Assembly: GCA_008933995.1 (NCBI GenBank)
Contig: WARS01000007.1
Coordinates: 2,854,230 to 2,918,229, forward strand
Direction of reading: 5' to 3'
Length of the DNA stretch: 64,000 nucleotides
From: Datnioides undecimradiatus
Lineage: Eukaryota; Chordata; Actinopteri; Lobotiformes; Datnioididae
The notes under the pieces are model-generated. The model searched no databases and had not been told where the DNA came from. It saw only the letters and a program-made list of their open reading frames with translations. Position 1 is the stretch's first letter; each line of letters starts with the position of its first letter. Below are positions 4,644-41,789 of the stretch, piece by piece. Made by a program: the position numbers and the translations under genes.

Positions 4644-6830
4644 CAAGGTCAGGGGTCCAGCTCTTTAAGACCCTTTCTATCCCTTGATCTGCTTTCTCTT
4701 TCTCCCCCTCTCTCTGCCCCCCCTTCAACTCTACGTCTCCTCTCTTTTGGGGAGATACAGACCAGGATTACTGCATAAAGACCCTTGTATCCTCCTATCT
4801 CCTATTACTCACCCACACCCATACACACAAACACACACACACAGACAGGCACATTATATGGGTTTATTGTGGACATACGTGGCCAATATCACCCCTCTCC
4901 AGACTGCTATAATCCCTCTGTGCCCTGCAGCCTGATTTCCACTGTTACATTCACACGGGTATAATAGTCTTTAACACACATGTAAAATGATACGAGCATT
5001 AGAGGGAGCGCTGGTAACAGTGCACTCTTTACATTTACCCTTTATGTTTTCTTAGCAATGTCAGAATACCATCGAATCAAAGCTAATGAAACTGCCTTTG
5101 CAATGATGCAGTAAAGGAAATTCAATAACGGGCTGTGTACCATATAACAATGCACGTTTCACATGCTGCAGGACAGACCACGTTCCTGTAGCTGCACAAT
5201 GTGAGTTGGACAGGTCATTTCCTGCTTTCTGTATGGCGGTGCTGTCAGTTTGATATATCAAACTGAAGTCTACACATACTAAGGAAATAAGGAACTGGTG
5301 TAAAGAGAAGTCAAAGTGGGGAATATGTCCTGTAAAATTCTGCTTGAGTTAGAAAAAAAAAATCACACCCAACCTTTTTTGAACTTGCTCAGGTTCATTC
5401 TGAACTCAACTAGAGCCGCAGCCACTGAAGTTTAACAAGCCCGAACCCTATTAAATATTTCTGGCAGCGCTCCTGATTTAATACCCGCGGCTTTTTCGCT
5501 GGATTAACAGCCATTCTTATGGCAAACACTCTGCACTTTTCTACCTTAGCAGACAAAGAGTTTACAACTCACCTCTCATTCACACACACACACACGGATG
5601 ACTCCTTAATAACTAACTAAAGTAAATATCCAATCACTTAAGAGAACTGTCCTTTACAAGGGGAGCGTCACATGACCAACAAGACCATCAAGGCTGCATC
5701 CTGAGCTCATCTATCTATACTGTGCACAGTCAAGAGTAATATAACACACCTGCACATGAAAACATGTGTCATCTGCACAACATATGCTGCAAAGCTCAGT
5801 CAAACTGCTGCACCACGAAGACCACATGTTATAGTGCTCAATCACAAATCTCTCTCCTATCAGCCTAACTGGTGGAAACCAGTGATCGGCTGACACATGT
5901 TTTCATTGGACGTTGTTTCCTATACACCTGTACGTGCCCTCACAAGGTGATAAACGCAGTTAGTGGCCAGGCATCTCTCACCAGTCATGGCTTCGTATCG
6001 CAACACATTGTGTCACATGCAGAACAAATGATGAAATGAAACCTAATACAAGGTAATGGAAAGATGTTCAGCCCAGTTTGAGATGAGAATCAAAGCTTTG
6101 ACTGCAGGACAGCGGTGTAACCACAGACTCAGACATAATTAATTACAGTCTGCTCGTCACAAATGGGATACATATGCACAGAAACGCACGGAGGGATATA
6201 AATAACAGTGCTGGTATCTCATAACATCAGACAGTATCAGAGAACCAGCGCCTCAGACAAGCACAGAGTGATGACTGGTGGAGAGAATATGAGACTGATA
6301 ACAGTGACCTTCTACTGCCATTAGGAATGAGTGTCTCCGACAAACACACACACGCGCACACACACACACTCCAACACACACACGGGGCATTCACCCCTTT
6401 AGGCCGATATACATCCCTCTACAGGAATATACACCCGTGCACGGAGCACCAGTGTGAGCTGTCAGTCAGTGCGGTGTCAGAGAAGAGACCCCCTGGATTG
6501 AGTGACAGCTGGTGGACAGGATATGACATACAGCTACACTCCCACAGAGACTGCAGGAAGCACAGTGCCGCTCTGCGCTGCACGGCTCCTCTTTCCTCTC
6601 AGAACGACGCTCTCCTTCTGCTGTACATTTCGCCTCCTCCATCAGCTCCGTCTTTCTCACTTTTACAAGTTTCCATTCCCAGAAACAGACATACGTACAA
6701 CTGCTGTTTGCTCCGCTTTGCTGCTACGTTTTTGTTGATCTAGATGCTGTCCTTTGCTGCCCGATTAGTGATTTATGTTCAAATAAATATAAAAACAGAG
6801 ATTGGGGTTTTTGGTTTGGTCCGGTCCTGG

Positions 6831-8312: not shown

Positions 8313-8567
8313 GAAGCGTGAGGAGTAGAAATCCATTTCCCCAAAGCATCAGCACAGATACAAACCTCCTCCATCTTCCCCCCCACAAATAAACACACGC
8401 AACAGACAGAGACACAAAAATAGCATGCGTACAAACACTGCACAGAAATACACACGGACACACACACGTTTGCGCACGCACACTGCGACAGACGCAAGTG
8501 CGCACACAGGTAAAAACTGAGATGACAGAGCTCCGTCTTGCTTAAGGATGGAAGACATGATAAAGTA

Positions 8568-8728
8568 TTCGGTAATTACAGAAACAGAGCGGAGTGTTGA
8601 TGTCACCCGGAGTGCCACGCAGATACTGATTAGAGATTACACAGATTCAATTAGGCGTTTCTCTGGATGAAATGAGATATCTTGCATGAACCTAATTCAA
8701 TTTAAATTAGTTGAATACTTCTGCTAAT
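8568..8728 (+). other. AT-rich element, copy 1 of an inverted homologous pair
   Basis: Seen: 8620-8639 (CAGATACTGATTAGAGATTA) is an exact 20-nt reverse complement of 16376-16395. Flanking blocks follow in the same order: 8693-8710 (TAATTCAATTTAAATTAG, 17/18) and 8717-8728 (ACTTCTGCTAAT, 12/12). A weaker block lies at about 8588-8608. It is rich in TAAT homeodomain cores and has no coding frame. It could be an old conserved repeat family or a duplicated enhancer. Confidence 0.6.
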
Positions 8729-8974
8729 GACACAGCAATGTGGCCGCACACAGTGTGCTGCTGTTACTGGATACACACGTAAACTCAATACCAGTGACTC
8801 ATCCAGAGATGAGAGAGCAGACTGGAGAAGACTGAGGGGCTGTGTCTCATCTGAGCTCCTCAGTTTACAGACCTTGAAAACATGTTTTCTCAGGCGGCGG
8901 ATGACTAGGACTGACGAAGTTCAAGTTTTTTGATTTGGATGGTTATATGATTTATGATTTCAATTGCAAAAAGG

Positions 8975-9004
8975 TGACGTCACGTGCTTCTCCGAACCAA
9001 TCAG
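8975..9004. promoter_or_regulatory. CRE / E-box / CCAAT cluster
   Basis: A perfect CRE palindrome TGACGTCA (8975-8982) overlaps by two bases a CACGTG E-box (8981-8986). A CCAAT box follows about ten bases later (8997-9001, in gaaccaatcagg). Such a set is typical of CREB/ATF, USF/MYC and NF-Y bound elements. No transcript start is visible beside it. Confidence 0.4.
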
Positions 9005-10689
9005 GAGTCACCAACAGTTTATTGGACTCTGGTGCCAGCTGGTGAGAGCTAAAGCCCTGATAAACAGGCCCTAAAGATGTTTCTAGCATTATGTTGCTTA
9101 TTTGGTCATAAATGTACAATGAAGCAATTTGTTCCAACTGTAAAAAAAAACCAAAAAAACAACCCCATAATATTTAAAAAATCCACAGACTGCATTTTGC
9201 TTGACTGATGTTTAAATAATTGATGCTCCAAAGAAAAACAACAGTTAATGCTTATGAAAAGTGAAAAAAATAGGAATTTATTTTCAAATGAACCAAACCA
9301 TGAAGCAGCACTCATTCAGTTTGTGTCAAACTTTGAAAACTACCATGTGGACATGCACAGTTTGTGTTAAACGTGGAATCACATGCACATTAGGAAGCAT
9401 CAAAGCAATGCACCGATACAGAAGTGCTTTGTACCCTCTTTTGTATATGTCAGTAATGAATATTTTCATACTGCGCCAACAGCTTTTGGAAACACCAGGA
9501 AAGTGTAGAAACAAAACAAACTGTGTCTTTTTTAGTTGCCTACCATCTGCACAGCTACTGCACAGAAATGTGACAGACAGGGGGAAAGTATGCCGGCACA
9601 GTGCCTAACTGCTCAACTGTCTGTTTCTGACGCGGAGAGAGAGAGAGAGAGAGCGTGCCGCGGTAACGAGCGGTGGACAGACGGCCACCGAGCGAAGCCA
9701 TTACCCACAACAAACACGCAACACAACAACACACAGGCGCACACCTTAACGCCCCGCCGCCTTACTGCCGACTCAGCAATGCCACACCTATGGATGCTGT
9801 TGCCATGGCAACTCCATACTCTGCATGCCCCAGCTGGCGTTCCCTTGAGGAAAGCATGTATGGGTGTGTGTGAGTGTGTGCGCGTGTGTGTGAGAGAGAG
9901 AGAGGTTAATGTGCCCCATGTGTGCTTTGCTCTGTCATGTGCAGTGGGGTGTACTGAAGAGGAAAACATGGCTGGTTGGGAGCAGTTATCATGGTATCCC
10001 ATTGTGTGTGTGTGTGTGTGTGTGTCTGTGTGTGTGTGTGCGTGTGTGCATGTGGGATCTCTTCCTATGGTTCTGTTCCATATTGCAGTCACCGGTTTTG
10101 GTTGAGGAGTTCGACCGAAGCCCGTGACACCCAGCGAATCAGGATTCAGCTGTCATTTCCAGACAAGACAGACAAATCAGCGAATGAAGATAAAACGCCA
10201 CCAACTTTGGCGCCGAAGAACGCGCCGCCAAGATCTGAACTCAGTCCAAGTTCATTCAAATCTGGTAGTATGACCACAAAACACAGTCGTGGAGTCAACA
10301 GATCCCACGGCAGCCCACTCAATCACTCGGCCTTCCTGCTGTTTTCCTACAATGACTCGCGCTTTCATTGTACACACATTACAGCGTGTGGTGACCTGGG
10401 CTCCTGCCAACGTGGCTCAGAGGATTTGAGACGAGCACAACACTCGGTAGTCGTGTTTCCAGCTCTCGGCTTGGTTCGGTGCAGCGTCACTCATCGCGGG
10501 AACGCGCACAGAGAACAACAAAGGGTCTGGATGTGTAACGTGTGTAACTAAATAATAATCAAACGTCAATCACATACAGGCAGAAACTTACACAATCACC
10601 CAGCTCTAAGATGTAAAGCCTGACTGAACCCTGCTGCAGTGATGTAAAGGTGTACTCCGGGGTGTGTCAGCACGCTGTGACATCACCGC

Positions 10690-10900
10690 TGGATGTCTAT
10701 ATTATATTATATTCATATTATACGAGACTAGATACCATCTTAGATTTCAGATATCATAATAAGGCGGTATGACGCATTGTTGTCTTTGCCTGGTTTTAAA
10801 GGCTGCATTACTGTAAAATGATGTGATTCTCTGAACTGTTCTAGCTGTTTTTTATCATTTATAATATTTATATTGTGTTTTTTATTATTGATATCAGGGT
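10690..10900. mobile_element. hAT-like non-autonomous element remnant, copy in large intron
   Basis: It carries GATACCATCTTAGATTTCAG and, at 10778-10817, TGTTGTCTTTGCCTGG followed by TTTTAAAGGCTGCATTACTG. The second block recurs at 19526-19560 with few changes. These are inner or right-end segments, as I recall, of the same teleost family as 32897-33090. No target-site duplication could be defined. Confidence 0.6.
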
Positions 10901-13900
10901 ATTTGGTCGAGAAGGATTTAGTTTAAAGCCGCCGAAGGGTCAAAAATGAACACCGATGTGCATAAAATGGCTAAAAGTTGCCCCGTGGAGTCATCGTCGA
11001 CAAACCAAGTCTTGTTTACATTCACTATTTATCATCAATATACACCGTGTGCATCCTCAAGGACTAACAAACGTGCCGACACATTTGCAGAACTTTACCA
11101 CAGCATTTGAAACCTACATATTTTCTGCCCTCTAGCTGTGACGGTGCCTGTCCAGGGGACACGCTGTTAAGGCATCGTTCTGTAGGACTGCTACTGGTCA
11201 CAGACTACACATGGCACCTTTCTAACAGTCTATTTATTTGTTTATTGACCGGGATATTATAGCAAACTGTTTCAGTGATCACAAAAAGACCACACTCCAG
11301 CCAAAATCTGATCCGTTAAGTGTAATTCAACCCGTCGAACACAGGCACTCACAGTCCTCCCCTCGCTGAGAGCCAACCGGAATGCAGACGACATTAACTA
11401 ACGTTCATCATATAGAGTTTCTGGCTTTGCATCAGCAGCTGGTGGTGTGAGTTTAATATCTGGCACATCGGGCCTGTAATACAGAGGCCGCCCTGTGAGA
11501 ATCCCGCACCGCTACAGCAGACTTAGCAGTGATAGAGAATAAATCCCCGGACACTGTCGTATATTCTGGATAATGCAGAAACGTTTTCAAAACAATCCAC
11601 GTTCAAGGTGTTTATTAACCAGGCCGGCACAGCTCAGCTGACCCCAGTCCGTCTTTCCCGGCTGGATCAAGCTCAGAGCGCTCAAAGAGAACCGGGGCTT
11701 TGCTGTTCAGTCTCTGCATTTCAGCCTCTCGCACTCCACTGCTCCCTCACCGCTGTGCAATTTATAGACTCCAATGCACACACACACACGCCTGACTCAT
11801 CATATGGCTCTCCTTTCACTTATATCCCACCTCTTCATCATCTTTCTCCACATAACACTTTTTAAACAAACACTGCAGACTAACTCTGCAGCTCTTTATT
11901 ATCTTCATCCGGATCGCGTCGTGCTGTCGTGCATGCATTCCCCCCCCGACACGCGTTTACCAGGCGGAGCCGGGAAAGATGGAGAATAATGAGTGTGTGC
12001 AGGTCAGTCGTCTCATTTCCCCTTTCTGACCAGCATCACTTGCCGGCGTGCCCGTCTCATCTCTTCGTCTTCCTCTCTAAATACGAACTTTATCATCCAT
12101 TAACTTCTGTCTTCCTCCTCCTCTTCTCCCTCATCCCTCCTCTTTCTAAGTCAATCATCCCAGGCCGCTCCATCTATCCCCGCACTGCCAGTTCATCTCT
12201 CACTCCCCACTCCATCCTGCCGTCTCTCAACCACATATCATATCACTCCCCTCTCTGTGCACTTTCCCCCCACCGATCCACTCAGCCGGTCTGTCAGCAC
12301 GGCTGTGTAGTTGTTTGTGTGTGTGTGTGTGTGAATGTGTGTTGATGCAGCAGGAGCATCACCTTGTTCCATCAGTGAAACAGAGAGGGAGAGAGAGACA
12401 GAGGGAGGTGATGCCTTCAGGGGCAGAGGAGGGAGATGGAAACAAGTGTGTCATATGTACTAGAAAATGGGCTTCTTAACCAGCTTCACTTGAATTCATA
12501 ACTTTGTTACCGTGATCATCTGATCTACAGAGAGCACACGTCTGTTACAGTCAACACAGAACAGTTAAACAGGCTTGTGTCAGATATATAATTAGATTCA
12601 TCATTTTTAAGACATATGTTTGACTTTAAGTAGAGCACTGTCTACTCTATTTATATTACATCATCTCAGGCTCTGATCACCCCTTCACCCAGTCACGACA
12701 AAGAATACCCTGGTTTGTGTCTTTAATTGAGGCAGGAGCTGTTAGTATCTATGACAACCCGGAGCAGCGGGGACAGCTGAAAGATGCTCTGGGCAGTTTT
12801 TATTCACTCGGCCGGAAACACAAGTCTAACCTTTCATTTTGGAGTGGAGCCTGTGATTGGTGGGGGCAGGGTGGGGGTTGTTGCGGGAATCATGAATGTC
12901 AGCAAACTGGAAAAAGGATGGTTTTAAAAACAGACCTCACCACGACAAATATGTTAATTATCAGATGGTTAAATCGGCGTCCACTCACCCACTCGCAGTG
13001 ACAAAAACGTTTGCCCAGCTTGGTCACAACACAACTACTCACACACAGACACACAATAACCCCCCTGAGGGCTGTTGCCACTCGCCATCATCCTCCCCTC
13101 CATCCTGTGGGTTGAACCATTAATGGCTAATTTGCAGGCTTTTTGGGGTAGAAGGTCATCACACTGATGGATGGGAGGTCTAAGGATTCATCAATACTAA
13201 CCCTCCTCTGTTAACACACACACACATATATAATACACGTCCAGGGGCAGATTGAATTTAAACATGTATTGCAGCCAATCAGACGTACGCACTGATGCAG
13301 GCGGCGCGCACGCTCACATCCATTCCTTACTTGCCATTTAACTGCAAGCTGGTACCATTACCATCCATACTAGTACCATCTGTCTTGACAGTGACAGGTG
13401 TAAAGGGAAAACCACAAACCCACAATGCATTTCTGCAGCTGCAGTTAAACAGGAAAGGGACAGAAAGGGAGGAAGCGGTTCAAGGACGGGCAGCAGAGAG
13501 GCAGAATGAGGGGCGGGGGCTGGTGGGGAGGGGGAGGAGGGCATCGGCTGATTGAAAATGAAAATAGAAATCTGTATCTCTCTCTGGCCTGTGTCTTTAT
13601 ATTAAACTTTATATTAAAAAATTATTGACATCTATTTCTTTTATAGTTGTCACCGTTATCCATATTACACTTGTAATGCTACCTCCATGACTGTTTAACT
13701 TCAGTTAAGGGACGTGGCCTAAGCTGGAGGCTCGTTACCATGGATACACACACATATGGTGACGCAGCATCTAATTAATTAATCAATGACTGACAGCCGA
13801 GGATTAATCAGCTTTGCTGGCTTGAACCAAGGCCAAGAAAGAGAGCACAAAGCCGAACGTCGTCACTCTCAGACAAACACAAACACAACTTCTGGTGCTT

Positions 13901-14656
13901 TTCGTTTGTTAGTGTCGCGATCAAATTCGATTGAACTGCGTATGCAATGCTATGAAAAGCTATGAGCTCGTAGCAGAAACTCAAGTGGGATCAGATCTGG
14001 ATTCACAGCCCTGAAAACTCCCTCTGCCGCCTGAGTCGATGGGAAAACCTTGTCGCTTTGAGAATGAACACGTGACATACTGTGTCCAAAACACGCTGCA
14101 TCGGTCCGCTCACGAAAAATCTAGAAGGAGGATAGGGAGCAGGGTGAAAGAAGCTAGCTCACGCACGCGCACATTTGCATAAGTTGTGTAAAAGAACACT
14201 GTGTAGTCACTTCAAACACAAACAAATGCATATTTCATATAAAGAAAATCAATCTTATCCCGCTACAAGGTTTGACTGAACGCCAAATCAATCACACGGC
14301 CTTTCTTTCCTGAACAAACAGATACAGATACAAAGACTTTCCATGACTCGGAGTCGTGATGCACACACTCACTGGAGATGGAAGGGCGCAGTCAGGAACT
14401 ATAAATAAGTTCATCTGTAGCTTGGTCACGGTGACATCCTACTCCCTGCTGCGTCAGTACATACAAACACACACATACACACGCACGAATTTTGCCTAGT
14501 CACAGTACAAACAACGACCTATTGACCGGCCTTGGAGCTTGGATGCACGAACGCAGCGCGTGTGCAGGAAGTGGTGATGATGATGCAGTTGAAGATGCAA
14601 CTTTAGAGGGCAGAAATAAAAACAGGAGGGGGAAGTAAACAATATAAGCGAGACAG

Positions 14657-14698
14657 GGAGGAAAAACAGGAAGAGACGGAGGAAAAACAGGAAGAGAT
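14657..14698 (+). repeat. 21-bp tandem duplication
   Basis: GGAGGAAAAACAGGAAGAGA plus C or T occurs twice in direct succession (14657-14677 and 14678-14698), one mismatch. A third partial unit follows after a gap at about 14710. The purine-rich strand extends to 14745. Confidence 0.9.
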
Positions 14699-15235
14699 GA
14701 AAGTTATGGGGGAGGAAAACAGAGGAAAAGAGAAATGAGAAGAGCGAGTGGTGACTGTACATGATGAGATGGAAATAAGTTTGATCCCATAGGTGGACCA
14801 GAGATGCATATCAATCAGTTCCATCTCCCTATTCCAAGCAAACACACACACACACACATACACAAAAACAACCTTCCTCTTCAACCCTGGATCATGCAGA
14901 CCGTCAAAAGGAAGCACGCCCTAGAGCTGTGATGCCATTGGCCAGCAATGATGTCATCTCTTCCTGGAGGTTGAGCAGCGAGCTGAACAATTGGCTGGCT
15001 GAGGCAGACAGTGGGAGAGCGCTGCTGAGGTATCAGTTCCATTCATACAGAGGCAGCGATGGAGCGTGTGTGTGTGTGCACGTGTGTGCGCGTGCATGTG
15101 TCCAACTGTGTGTGTAGGCGTGACCACTCCCCACTGGGGCATACAGGCAGATGTATTAGGGCCGTGTCCATCATTGAGAGACACAGACAGTACCTGCTGG
15201 GATGCTCCCTAATGGAGTCTCTGTCTCTGTCAAAC

Positions 15236-15289
15236 ACATACACACAGACACACACACACACACACACATGCACACACACACACACACAC
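15236..15289 (+). repeat. (CA)n imperfect microsatellite
   Basis: Three CA blocks broken by CAGACA and CATGCA. Confidence 0.93.
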
Positions 15290-16299
15290 TGGAATTTCGC
15301 TCAAATGCACACTATCAAATATGCAAGTAATCAAGCATGCACACACACACGTACACTCTTGAACACACACAGCTGATGGGGGTTGGGAGGGTTGAGATGG
15401 GTGTTGTCTCCCTGTTGTTACTGGGCTGTTGTCATGGCAATGCAGATGGAGCTTTTACTGCTAGCTGGGAATTTGCAATAAACTACACACACACACACAC
15501 ACAGTCTTTTCACTGATGCGTGCACGTGCACACCTTTTGAGCGCAGCACTGCTCTTGCAACTGCTTTCAAGCAACACACAAAAATAGGAAAACAGAAAAG
15601 GACTCAGTGTCTGGGAGTGTGTATGAGTGTGTGTGAAGGTGTCAGTGTAAACACTCCCAGGAGAGACACTAGACACGTTCCTCTAAGAGATGCTCATGGG
15701 AAATTAGCCTGTGATAGCCTGTTACAAAGTGCTGTGCATTCACTCTCCTTCTTCTCTTTCTCTCTTTCCTTATTACTCCCCTCCCCCTCTTACCACCCAC
15801 ACCTCCCTCTCCTCACCCCCTTTCCTTGAGAGTATGATGTCACTAGTGACTCTGTAATTGCCAGCATAGCTGCTGGGATTTCTTCCAAATCTGCACGTGT
15901 GAACACAAGATGCAGAGCAGCCCCCGGTCTCATTCTAACATGCTGCAGTATCGAGCTTAGATTAAAAACTCCAACATGCACACTATAGACAGATGCAGAT
16001 GCAGATACCACACCGACCACCATAATGCAGCAGAGATGTCCTGATACAGAAGCTAATTGCCTTGCTGGGGGATGTTCTTTGCCTGTGCCTTGTCCATTAC
16101 TCTCCTATATCTGGACACTTGCACTGCTTTCTTACTACACACCGGAAACATAATAACTGATATCTACCGTTCAAATCGATCCGGTCTTTCCATCCTTCTT
16201 TCTTCACTCTAATCTCTTCTCCCAGTGATTATGTGTATGCATGAGTTATACGTGCTCCGGCAGACGATCCGAGTGTCCACACTGCATGAATTCTATCTT

Positions 16300-16435
16300 A
16301 TTAGCAGAAGTGCAATCTAATTTGAATTGAATTACATCCAACAAAGCTATCAAATTTCAGTCAATTAAATCCGTTTAATCTCTAATCAGTATCTGTATCT
16401 GGTTCACATTAACACCCCAATCCGCCTCATTAATA
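16300..16435 (-). other. AT-rich element, copy 2 of an inverted homologous pair
   Basis: This is the reverse-complement partner of 8568-8728, 7.7 kb away in the same intron. Colinear blocks are at 16376-16395 (exact 20 nt), 16317-16334 and 16300-16311. The spacing between first and second block is 61 nt here and 73 nt in the other copy, so one gained or lost about 12 nt. No terminal repeats or coding potential are seen. Confidence 0.6.
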
Positions 16436-17961
16436 ACCAAAAAAATGCTATCAGTACCTCTGCTGGAATGGCACTCTATCTTCTCCATCTCTGAGCGAGC
16501 ACTTGTGTTTAACTTGGGCATCTGCAGCAGTGCTGAAGTAATCAGTCAACTCTACTGACAGACAACACTTCTGAAAGCCGTTAATGCTGTTTAACAAGAA
16601 CCAGTGCAAATCAAATGCAAACTGCTCAACATAGTCTCCACAATTCATCAATTTGAGAATATATTGTTAGATTAATTGACAATCTAATAAAATAACATTG
16701 CTTGCAGCTCCATTTCTGTGGATGCATGCATGCACACATGTGCGTGTACACATGTATGAGCGCATATTTGTGGGTGTGTGTGCGCATGTATGCGAGAGAA
16801 AGCGAGTCCCAGCCAGCGTGTTCATTGCCATTCTCAGCTGCTCTCTGCAAATCACCCAGAGACGCTCCAACAGCCGCGGGTCCTTTCTTAAAGCAAAACG
16901 ATGCATTAAAAACTCCACCGGGGTTCAGGACCTTCTGTAACTCAAACACACTCAAACCCACTGGGATTTATTAGAAATTAGAACTGAGAGCAACGGTGGC
17001 ACGGAAAGTGAAAAATCTCAACCTGGAGAAAATGTAATTTTCCTGCTACGGGGACTGGAAATCTCAGCCGTCATTAATAAATGAATAATTTGAAAATATG
17101 CTGAGACTCAAACATACGATACGTAATTTTCTACCACAAGTGGTCCCTCAATCAAAAATATTACATATGGTCTCTCATGTTGTGAAGTAGCATGGGATCA
17201 TGGGAGTTGCTGACTTCACCAACACACGTCAGTCATGTCAGTCATCTTCTCCAGGTTAAGATTCCTTCAGTGTGGACTGTTCAGGGGCTTTTCACCGGGA
17301 GTCCCTTTATGGCTTTTCATGCTATTGTGACTTAAAGCTTCTGGCACACAGCCACAATGGTGATGCATTGCGCAAAGTGGATATTATGACGCTACTGACA
17401 TGCAACCAAATGAAACCAGTTATGGACTGTCTGCGGTCATCTGTCTGTTGTGCATGGCGCTTCATATATGCTTCACTTGAAGGCAGATCAATAACAAGCT
17501 TTGCTTAGTTAATCCTGTACTCTAAATCCATGCTCATTGCTAACATCAGGTCCATCTTAACATCTGAGAAAGTCAGCACTCCCAGATTGCATCCATTATG
17601 CATCATTCCAAACCGGAGGGCCACACTTTTTGTCTCGAACAATGGGCATTAAAAGCGTGAGAGCGCAGCTCCCCGTGCTGGAACGGCTATTCGTGTCACT
17701 GGGGAGAACTGAGCCTTTAAAGCTGCAGCCACCTGTGATCCAATAGCCTCCACGTTCTCCCGAGGTCAGGTGAGGTCAAAGATGAGGGGAGCAAACAATT
17801 GCCAACCTCCTGCTCCAAAATCCCTTCACTATGCCACACTCCCTCTCAGCTGTAGCGTTCCCAGCATATGTGAGCACGGGGCGTGTGTGTGTGTATGTGT
17901 GGATCCGCAGGCATGTGTGATTTCTTCAGCTAGAGACTTGTGGAGAGACTTCAGAGGGCCG

Positions 17962-19459: not shown

Positions 19460-19600
19460 AGGTTTTGCATTCTGGTATATGTTATATTCAAATTTGGGTT
19501 TTGTAATATTATGATATGACACAAGTGTTGTCTTTTCCTGCTTTTAAAGGCTGCAGTAAAGCTTTTTAAGGGCTAAGTAAAGAAACTGATTCCTCAGCCT
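19460..19600. mobile_element. hAT-like non-autonomous element remnant, second copy
   Basis: 19526-19560 reads TGTTGTCTTTTCCTGCTTTT then AAAGGCTGCAGTAAA, matching 10778-10817 in the same orientation apart from a few substitutions. The flanking AT-rich sequence (TATGTTATATTCAAATT) is diverged. Confidence 0.55.
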
Positions 19601-39828: not shown

Positions 39829-39870
39829 GTGTGTGTGTGTGTGTGTGTCTGTGTGTGTGTGTGTGTGTGT
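39829..39870 (+). repeat. (GT)n microsatellite
   Basis: About 42 bp with one TCTG interruption near 39848. Confidence 0.95.
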
Positions 39871-40387
39871 TGTGCCTGTGTGTGCTGCTTTAATTTCACC
39901 CTGATGAAAAACAAGCCTTCAATAATTCAGCTCTGTGCCTCCTCATACGCTGACAAATATCAGTCACTTTGACCCGCGGCTGCGCCGACACACACCACCC
40001 TGTGAGAGCGACACACAACTCAAACCTCGTGCACACAGACGAAGACGCCCACACTGTGCTCCGTTTAACTTCATTACGTGCTATACCCAAAATTACATTC
40101 CACAAGTATGACTATAACCGTAACCCTGATCCTGTATCTGGTTATTACGCGAATAAATAACAGGGACTGTAGCACCAAACATCACGTACCAACTATAGCG
40201 TTCTCTACTGACTTATTAAGAAATGTATTACTTATTAAGAGACATTATTCCTTAAAGACAAAAGAAACACACTCATTACAAGCTGTATTTATGGATTATG
40301 GTTAAGAATGATGCATTAGATTGTTGCTATTTATTTAGCTATTTAAAGATTTTCAAATGATACGATTTATTTAAGCATATTCACGGT

Positions 40388-40510: not shown

Positions 40511-41789
40511 TTATCTAATAATCAAAATCATGTTAACGCTTCAGATGACTGTGTTCATCAAAGTACAGTATTCAGTTTGATTTGTAGCTGCCAAATGATG
40601 CAAAATGATGGATTAGGAGCAAAAAAAAACAAAAGCACAGAGAAGAATGAAGTCACAGCTGTGGTATAACTGAACCCCGTGTATAACATGTTCCTGCGTT
40701 GTCCCTGGAGACTGAAGGCTCATGGGTAGGATACCACAAGAGGTATGTATATATATATAAATTAATATTTCTTTATTTATTTTAAGCTCTCTGTTTCTGC
40801 TCCGGCAGCCTTGTCTCTATGCTTCTTTTTCCTTTCTGCTCTTGTATCAGCGTTTCTTTTAAAATGGTCCCGGCTGTCGTTTATGATTGCATACCGTCCA
40901 ACAAAAGAGAAATGCTGCGGAACACAGTGGGTGTAAAACTGATCCGGGGTGGGAGGAGGGGAAAGGCCAAGGCCGCAGCGTTTTGGCACTTTGCACTGAT
41001 GTGGCCTCCATTTGTCAAACGTGAGGGAGGCAGCGAGATGAGTTATGAAAGCCTTGTTTGTCATCAAGGTGAAATTAACAGCTCACACGCTCAAACATAC
41101 ATTCATCCTCAGCGTCGTATGTTTGCCTCACACTCTAAAAGCTAAAGATAATTACATGGAAATGCTTCTGTGTCTATCGTTTGTTCGCCAGTGACAGTTA
41201 TGATATAGTTGTCCACTATGAATTTTGATGCGCCGGTTTCGAGCACATAAACAGACAACGCCTGAAAAGTCTGAAATTACTTCCTGTCATGTTGCCCGTA
41301 CGGCAATCAGTAAAAATGGGTAGAAACAGGAAGCGTTAAAAAGAGGATAAACACCGACGTTTTCACTGAGCAATGAGAGGCAGACATTCCACAGAAAACG
41401 GGAGAAACAGATCATTTTTACTGAAACATTAATATCTGGGTCTGAGAGTGTGTATTTGACATCATGCTTAGAATTCTGTTAATGTGAAAATCAGTAACTA
41501 CACAGTTTTAAGACTTTTTGGACAACCTCTCCAAACTGAGCCCAGTTTCATCACCTGTCTCTGTCTGCCTGGAGGCTCAGCTGTATAATAAATACACTGC
41601 ACATATTCACACCATCTGCTGCCGGAAGAGTGATGAGGACTGCTGTAAACACGTAACCTGTTTTTATCAGAATCTGCTCAGAGACGGTTCCACTTCCAGG
41701 TCTGATTTGATTTACTTTGTCCACTGCTTTCCTACACATTACTGTCAGCAGGTTTACCAAAAAAAGAGCCGGACAGCTGACAAAACATA

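Follow-up and report, generated by a model that had tools for sequence, protein, structure and literature searches.

We found that a 64,000-nucleotide stretch of the Datnioides undecimradiatus genome (contig WARS01000007.1; hereafter the window) carries two homologous elements, A and B, which lie in opposite orientation about 7.7 kb apart in non-coding-looking DNA. The pair is real and old. In both composition and words its members resemble vertebrate conserved non-coding elements (CNEs), and A does so more clearly than B. The most likely reading, which we hold tentatively, is that A and B are a locally duplicated, inverted pair of homeodomain-type enhancers.

Two homologous elements in inverted orientation

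Self-comparison of the window by gapped BLAST aligns 8568-8735 with 16441-16293 (72.5 bits, E-value 6e-13) at 66.9% identity over 169 columns, with 21 gap positions. This confirms the original prediction, made from the letters of the window, of two homologous elements in inverted orientation. The pair ranks first of the three that are not simple sequence (eight pairs in all, E-value 1e-3) and comes first again after masking; the reversed-sequence control gave 8 matches with a top score of 35.4 bits. An exact 20-mer, a 17/18 block and a 12/12 block had been described within the two elements, and all were recovered in the order given, with start-to-start spacings of 73 versus 61 and 24 versus 23 in A versus B. 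After low-complexity filtering, a local palindrome at 5245 remains as the sole other exact repeat of at least 18 nt. The original prediction was to be refuted if the similarity did not extend past the 20-mer; it does, since the inner block without the 20-mer still outscored 1000 of 1000 shuffles. Extents from a 5/-4 scheme with gap costs of -10/-1 were discarded because that alignment runs on without limit. The exact 20-mer has no match in genome_contigs and viral_contigs, which hold prokaryotes and viruses and have no bearing on its rarity in fish. The main parts of the pair are as follows.

8568-8735, plus strand: element A, main homologous stretch (BLAST, GC content, CNE words)
8620-8639, plus strand: exact 20-nt block of A (CTGATTAG, with two GATTA); CTGATTAG matches the CNE word CTRATTAS
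8693-8710, plus strand: 17/18 block of A; ATTCAATT matches the CNE word ATTVAATT
8717-8728, plus strand: 12/12 block of A (CTGCTAAT), matching the CNE word VWGCTAAT
16293-16441, minus strand: element B, main homologous stretch, inverted relative to A (BLAST, GC content, CNE words)
16376-16395, minus strand: exact 20-nt block of B, reverse complement of 8620-8639 (exact-repeat search)
16317-16334, minus strand: 17/18 block of B, pairing with 8693-8710
16300-16311, minus strand: 12/12 block of B, pairing with 8717-8728

Base composition and CNE words

Borders in base composition and TAATTA-type motifs have been described for vertebrate CNEs (PMC6730951, PMC5728398, PMC11034925). Both A and B have an AT-rich core with AT content falling at the borders. 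The GC content of A (8568-8735) is 0.387 against 0.473 and 0.487 in its 150-nt flanks, that of its inner block (8620-8735) is 0.328 against 0.50 and 0.487, and that of B (16293-16441) is 0.322 against 0.433 and 0.447. A drop of equal size occurs at 0.4-0.9% of window positions for the inner block of A (116 nt) and at 1.1-2.2% for that of B (103 nt); for the longer stretches the figures are 4.5-8.2% (A, 168 nt) and 2.2-4.4% (B, 149 nt). The elements had also been called rich in TAAT cores, and the counts bear this out: A contains 8 and B 9 instances of TAAT or ATTA; 1 and 11 of 1000 shuffles, respectively, have as many, as do 10 and 8 of 760 tiles.

We then compared both elements with published CNE words, namely the 34 distinct 8-mers in Table 1 of PMC2176071 (Tables 2 and 3 were left out), which are motifs overrepresented in human conserved non-coding sequence relative to other intergenic sequence. 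Element A has 13 word places (shuffle mean 1.23, maximum 10), several of which overlap, so that they do not amount to 13 separate sites. None of 1000 shuffles and none of 1505 other tiles, 288 of them low in GC, scored as high. Element B has 8 places. At least as many were counted in 39 of 1000 shuffles, in 16 of 1505 tiles and in 4 of the 288 low-GC tiles; the control tiles are 168 nt long and B is shorter (149 nt). Letter-permuted word lists matched the count of A in 0 of 300 cases and that of B in 1 of 300, and the outer parts of both elements contain no CNE words. Enrichment in TAAT-type CNE words is strong in A and weak in B.

Edges of the homology and flanking direct repeats

When the comparison was cut into parts and each part set against shuffles, the inner edge of the homology proved sharp. 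The right flank at 8736-8787 is no more alike than chance would give (202 and 152 of 1000 shuffles as good), and 8788-8887 shows marginal likeness (24 and 60 of 1000). On the other side, the score of 8490-8567 against B was reached by 2 of 1000 shuffles in global and 37 of 1000 in local alignment. Within this part, 8490-8521 and 16484-16510 are alike (2 of 1000 shuffles as good) and 8532-8567 and 16442-16474 are not (699 of 1000). The far left of the comparison does no better than shuffles (741 and 844 of 1000). An outer island of likeness (8490-8531 and 16474-16510) is thus parted from the main block by some 35 unlike bases. Terminal repeats had been reported as absent, a statement that needs a rider: both copies have short direct repeats (8-10 nt) at their edges.

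8490-8567, plus strand: outer, weakly alike part of A, with likeness within 8490-8521 and no CNE words
16442-16510, minus strand: outer, weakly alike part of B, with likeness within 16484-16510 and no CNE words
8522-8531, plus strand: outer member of a 9/10 direct repeat flanking A, ATGACAGAGC (46 of 1000 shuffles)
8727-8736, plus strand: inner member of the same repeat, ATGACACAGC
16292-16299, minus strand: inner member of an exact 8-nt direct repeat flanking B (13 of 1000 shuffles)
16475-16482, minus strand: outer member of the same repeat

In each copy the direct repeats abut the inner edge of homology. Their words differ between A and B but align with each other, and the test for them was framed after the edges were known.

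An enhancer pair or an old repeat

In the reading that we favor, an old local inverted duplication would have produced two copies of one homeodomain-type cis-regulatory element, CNE-like or enhancer-like in kind. Each AT-rich core would carry a cluster of candidate TAAT-type sites (CTGATTAG, ATTCAATT, CTGCTAAT) that may be bound by homeodomain or POU factors. Since enhancers work in either orientation, the inverted copy could still serve the same target promoter as the first copy and be redundant with it. Homology, inversion, AT-rich cores, word enrichment and the lower divergence of the inner block are observed; the local origin of the duplication, factor binding, enhancer activity and the target gene are what we infer. 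In an intronic CNE of the Lhx2 locus, replacement of TAATTA abolished reporter expression in 8 of 13 embryos and truncated its pattern in 3 of 13 (PMC3100342). A full TAATTA is present in A at 8571-8581 (GGTAATTACAG), where the aligned part of B reads GGTTATTAATG; possibly a homeodomain-type site was gained or lost in one copy. A duplicated enhancer pair was among the original suggestions, and composition, the TAAT excess and CNE words beyond the level of permuted lists agree with it; taken as a whole, the original interpretation is supported in part.

Several known systems resemble A and B, each with a difference. Vertebrate CNEs of the homeodomain-motif type share the AT-rich core, the GC-richer flanks and the TAAT-type words, and in the frames searched A and B gave no coding match; but CNEs are reported as mostly single-copy, whereas here one locus holds two homologous copies. 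Duplicated CNEs (dCNEs; McEwen et al. 2006, via PMC2781166 and PMC1896008) likewise consist of two diverged copies with CNE-like sequence, and CNE duplicates are reported as products of whole-genome duplication. However, dCNEs adjoin paralogous genes, while A and B are inverted and 7.7 kb apart. With both copies in one locus, the pair does not fit the dCNE pattern of copies near paralogous genes from whole-genome duplication. Local inverted CNE duplicates did not appear in the titles or abstract beginnings of the literature searched, from which we claim no absence from print. Repair-mediated duplications (PMC2671141) are likewise short and local: short proximal duplications (mean 162 bp) are described as a product of break repair, and one exon example in opposite orientation is on record. 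A diverged inverted pair in one locus would reveal which bases of an enhancer are retained once it has been duplicated and by what route redundant enhancers come about; should A and B be an old repeat instead, they would be ordinary.

A number of observations weigh against an enhancer pair. Repair duplications are classed confidently when at most 5 kb apart, a distance that the 7.7 kb between A and B exceeds, most of the farther-apart ones looked like retrotransposition (PMC2671141), and the breakpoints of A and B are too old to read. The word enrichment of B is weak and, because the two elements are homologous, A and B are not independent word tests. The authors of the word list themselves put most AT-rich CNE words down to overall AT-richness and runs of A or T, and their Table 3, compiled against composition-matched random sequence, holds mostly GC-rich words (PMC2176071). 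The direct repeats at the edges of both copies look like insertion scars.

The pattern of divergence counts on both sides. In favor of an enhancer pair, the inner block is less diverged than the outer part (Kimura two-parameter distance 0.22-0.25 in 8620-8735 versus 0.47-0.52 in 8490-8619, the ranges reflecting gap costs). Against it, clustering of identity along the alignment is only borderline (permutation P-value 0.06-0.14 in run-length and scan tests), and these tests neither show nor exclude selection on the core. Columns under CNE words are 84-90% identical compared with 55-58% elsewhere, and 0-2 of 337 or 517 circular shifts scored as high. We set this excess aside because letter-permuted lists nearly match it (mean identity 0.80 versus 0.84 for the real list, which 80 of 300 reach). 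Identity between A and B climbs with local AT content from 0.44 to 0.89, and the better-kept positions track AT content, not CNE words. The same caution applies to TAAT/ATTA, kept at 12 of 16 places versus 10 of 36 for other AT-only 4-mers. Among 14 aligned CpG columns, 1 has CG in both copies, 9 have CG opposite TG or CA, and 4 are other; the alignment contains 6-8 gap events per 60-66 substitutions. Such CpG turnover and indel load would fit neutral decay, whether or not a core was under constraint.

The main rival holds that A and B are two degraded, functionless insertions of an old interspersed repeat, either a non-autonomous DNA element or a retroposed fragment, which arrived independently and in opposite orientation; we rate it a serious but somewhat doubtful contender. 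It would account for the sharp inner edge and for the short direct repeat that adjoins this edge in A and in B, its words differing between the two as those of target-site duplications would. The richness of the alignment in indels fits it too, as do the nine CpG columns with CG opposite TG or CA, although CpG turnover does not discriminate between an old repeat and an old duplication, since at equilibrium gains and losses look the same. Two more diverged pairs exist within the window. On the other hand, a profile of both copies found no third copy in the 64 kb. The likeness between 8490-8521 and 16484-16510 falls outside the direct repeats, which is not expected of independent insertions, and the unlike 8532-8567 and 16442-16474 fall inside them. 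The direct-repeat words of the two copies align with each other, and the edge test was designed after the edges had been seen. A random dead repeat would not be expected to show enrichment in CNE words or borders in composition either. Searches for landmarks gave no Rfam match at the gathering score and no tRNA with ARAGORN. A tRNA-type short interspersed element (SINE) head was rejected: there is no B box in either copy and one A-box-like site, with mismatches, in B only. Old repeat fragments often lose their landmarks, and their absence here leaves this rival standing.

A further reading, also raised in the original prediction, makes A and B copies of an ancient conserved low-copy repeat (Eulor/UCON type) that would have begun as a repeat, been exapted as regulatory DNA and been kept at both places. 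These are ancient, hard-to-classify families, some of them traced to transposons (PMC5753468), and, like A and B, they combine a possible repeat origin with CNE-like features. This reading, which would join the repeat-like and the CNE-like sides of the data, seems to us improbable; the profile search found two copies in the 64 kb. We consider it least credible of all that A and B are the terminal inverted repeats of a single 8-kb transposon. Their inverted arrangement at the two ends of 8490-16510 would suit such an element, but the likeness is strongest inside and weakens outward, the reverse of terminal repeats. In addition, 8450-8575 and 16435-16560 share no 8-mer that could be a target-site duplication, and no Pfam match turned up in minus-frame translations of 1-15 kb or plus-frame translations of 8-17 kb. 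With outer ends least alike, the pair was rejected as a terminal-inverted-repeat transposon.

The pair might also be kept for a long-range duplex of intron RNA that controls editing, splicing or circular RNA formation, as the original prediction had raised; this appears very unlikely. By energy the duplex is possible: the predicted values are -113 (plus transcript) and -132 kcal/mol (minus transcript), whereas 200 shuffles of each averaged -40 and -52 and went no lower than -55 and -67. Any inverted repeat yields such pairing, however, and the mismatches do not clearly indicate that pairing was preserved: among the 32 transitions, a G-U pair is retained by 12 in the plus transcript and by 20 in the minus transcript. 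Each arm alone folds no better than shuffles (z-scores from -0.71 to 0.77), and no exon was recognised between the arms in Pfam scans of translated frames.

Locus context and other repeat pairs

It is plausible that A and B lie within one intron. With stops masked, translations of the minus strand in all three frames over about 1-60 kb, and of the plus strand in all three over 8-17 kb, gave no Pfam match (E-value 0.01), although a missing match does not prove that A and B are non-exonic. Ten single open reading frames gave nothing at the curated Pfam cut-off, and the three minus frames of 1-15 kb had no PDB match at an E-value of 0.1. Two consecutive exons of a serine-rich protein were recognised on the minus strand at about 36502-36209 and 36036-35529, with splice signals and phases that agree (phases counted by hand). 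These exons have no Pfam match at an E-value of 1, and one exon has a single PDB match, at an E-value of 1.2 only. Neither DNA words of the A and B blocks nor peptide words of the exons were found in paper text.

A second inverted pair that is not simple sequence is found at 39864-39958 and 41010-41101, 1.1 kb apart (77% over 96 columns; E-value 8e-11 unmasked, 55.4 bits masked), with likeness perhaps from 39849 to 39986. Both members carry TTAATTTCACC followed by YTGATGA and are only weakly CNE-like, having 2 and 3 CNE words, respectively (equalled or exceeded by 128 and 30 of 1000 shuffles). A direct pair at 10757-10810 and 19504-19558 (80% over 55 columns, E-value 3e-5, 8.7 kb apart), in which both copies have TTTTAAAGGCTGCA, is lost in the masked search because one copy is partly masked. 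The distances within the three pairs (7.7, 1.1 and 8.7 kb) give Fisher's P-value of 0.054 against random window positions, or 0.047 for the first two, and lean mildly to local duplication.

A bolder proposal is that short inverted duplications, arising locally and repeatedly through break repair, increased the number of homeodomain-type enhancers within the locus. A and B and the independent pair at 39864-39958 and 41010-41101 would then both be regulatory pairs that were kept in place. We regard it as unlikely. If it were true, repeated local inverted duplication would be a route to redundant (shadow) enhancers unlike the genome-duplication route of dCNEs.

CA/TG microsatellites are very dense throughout the window, as fits a teleost host. 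Simple sequence aside, the window holds only three diverged repeat pairs (E-value 1e-3), which suggests a repeat-poor locus.

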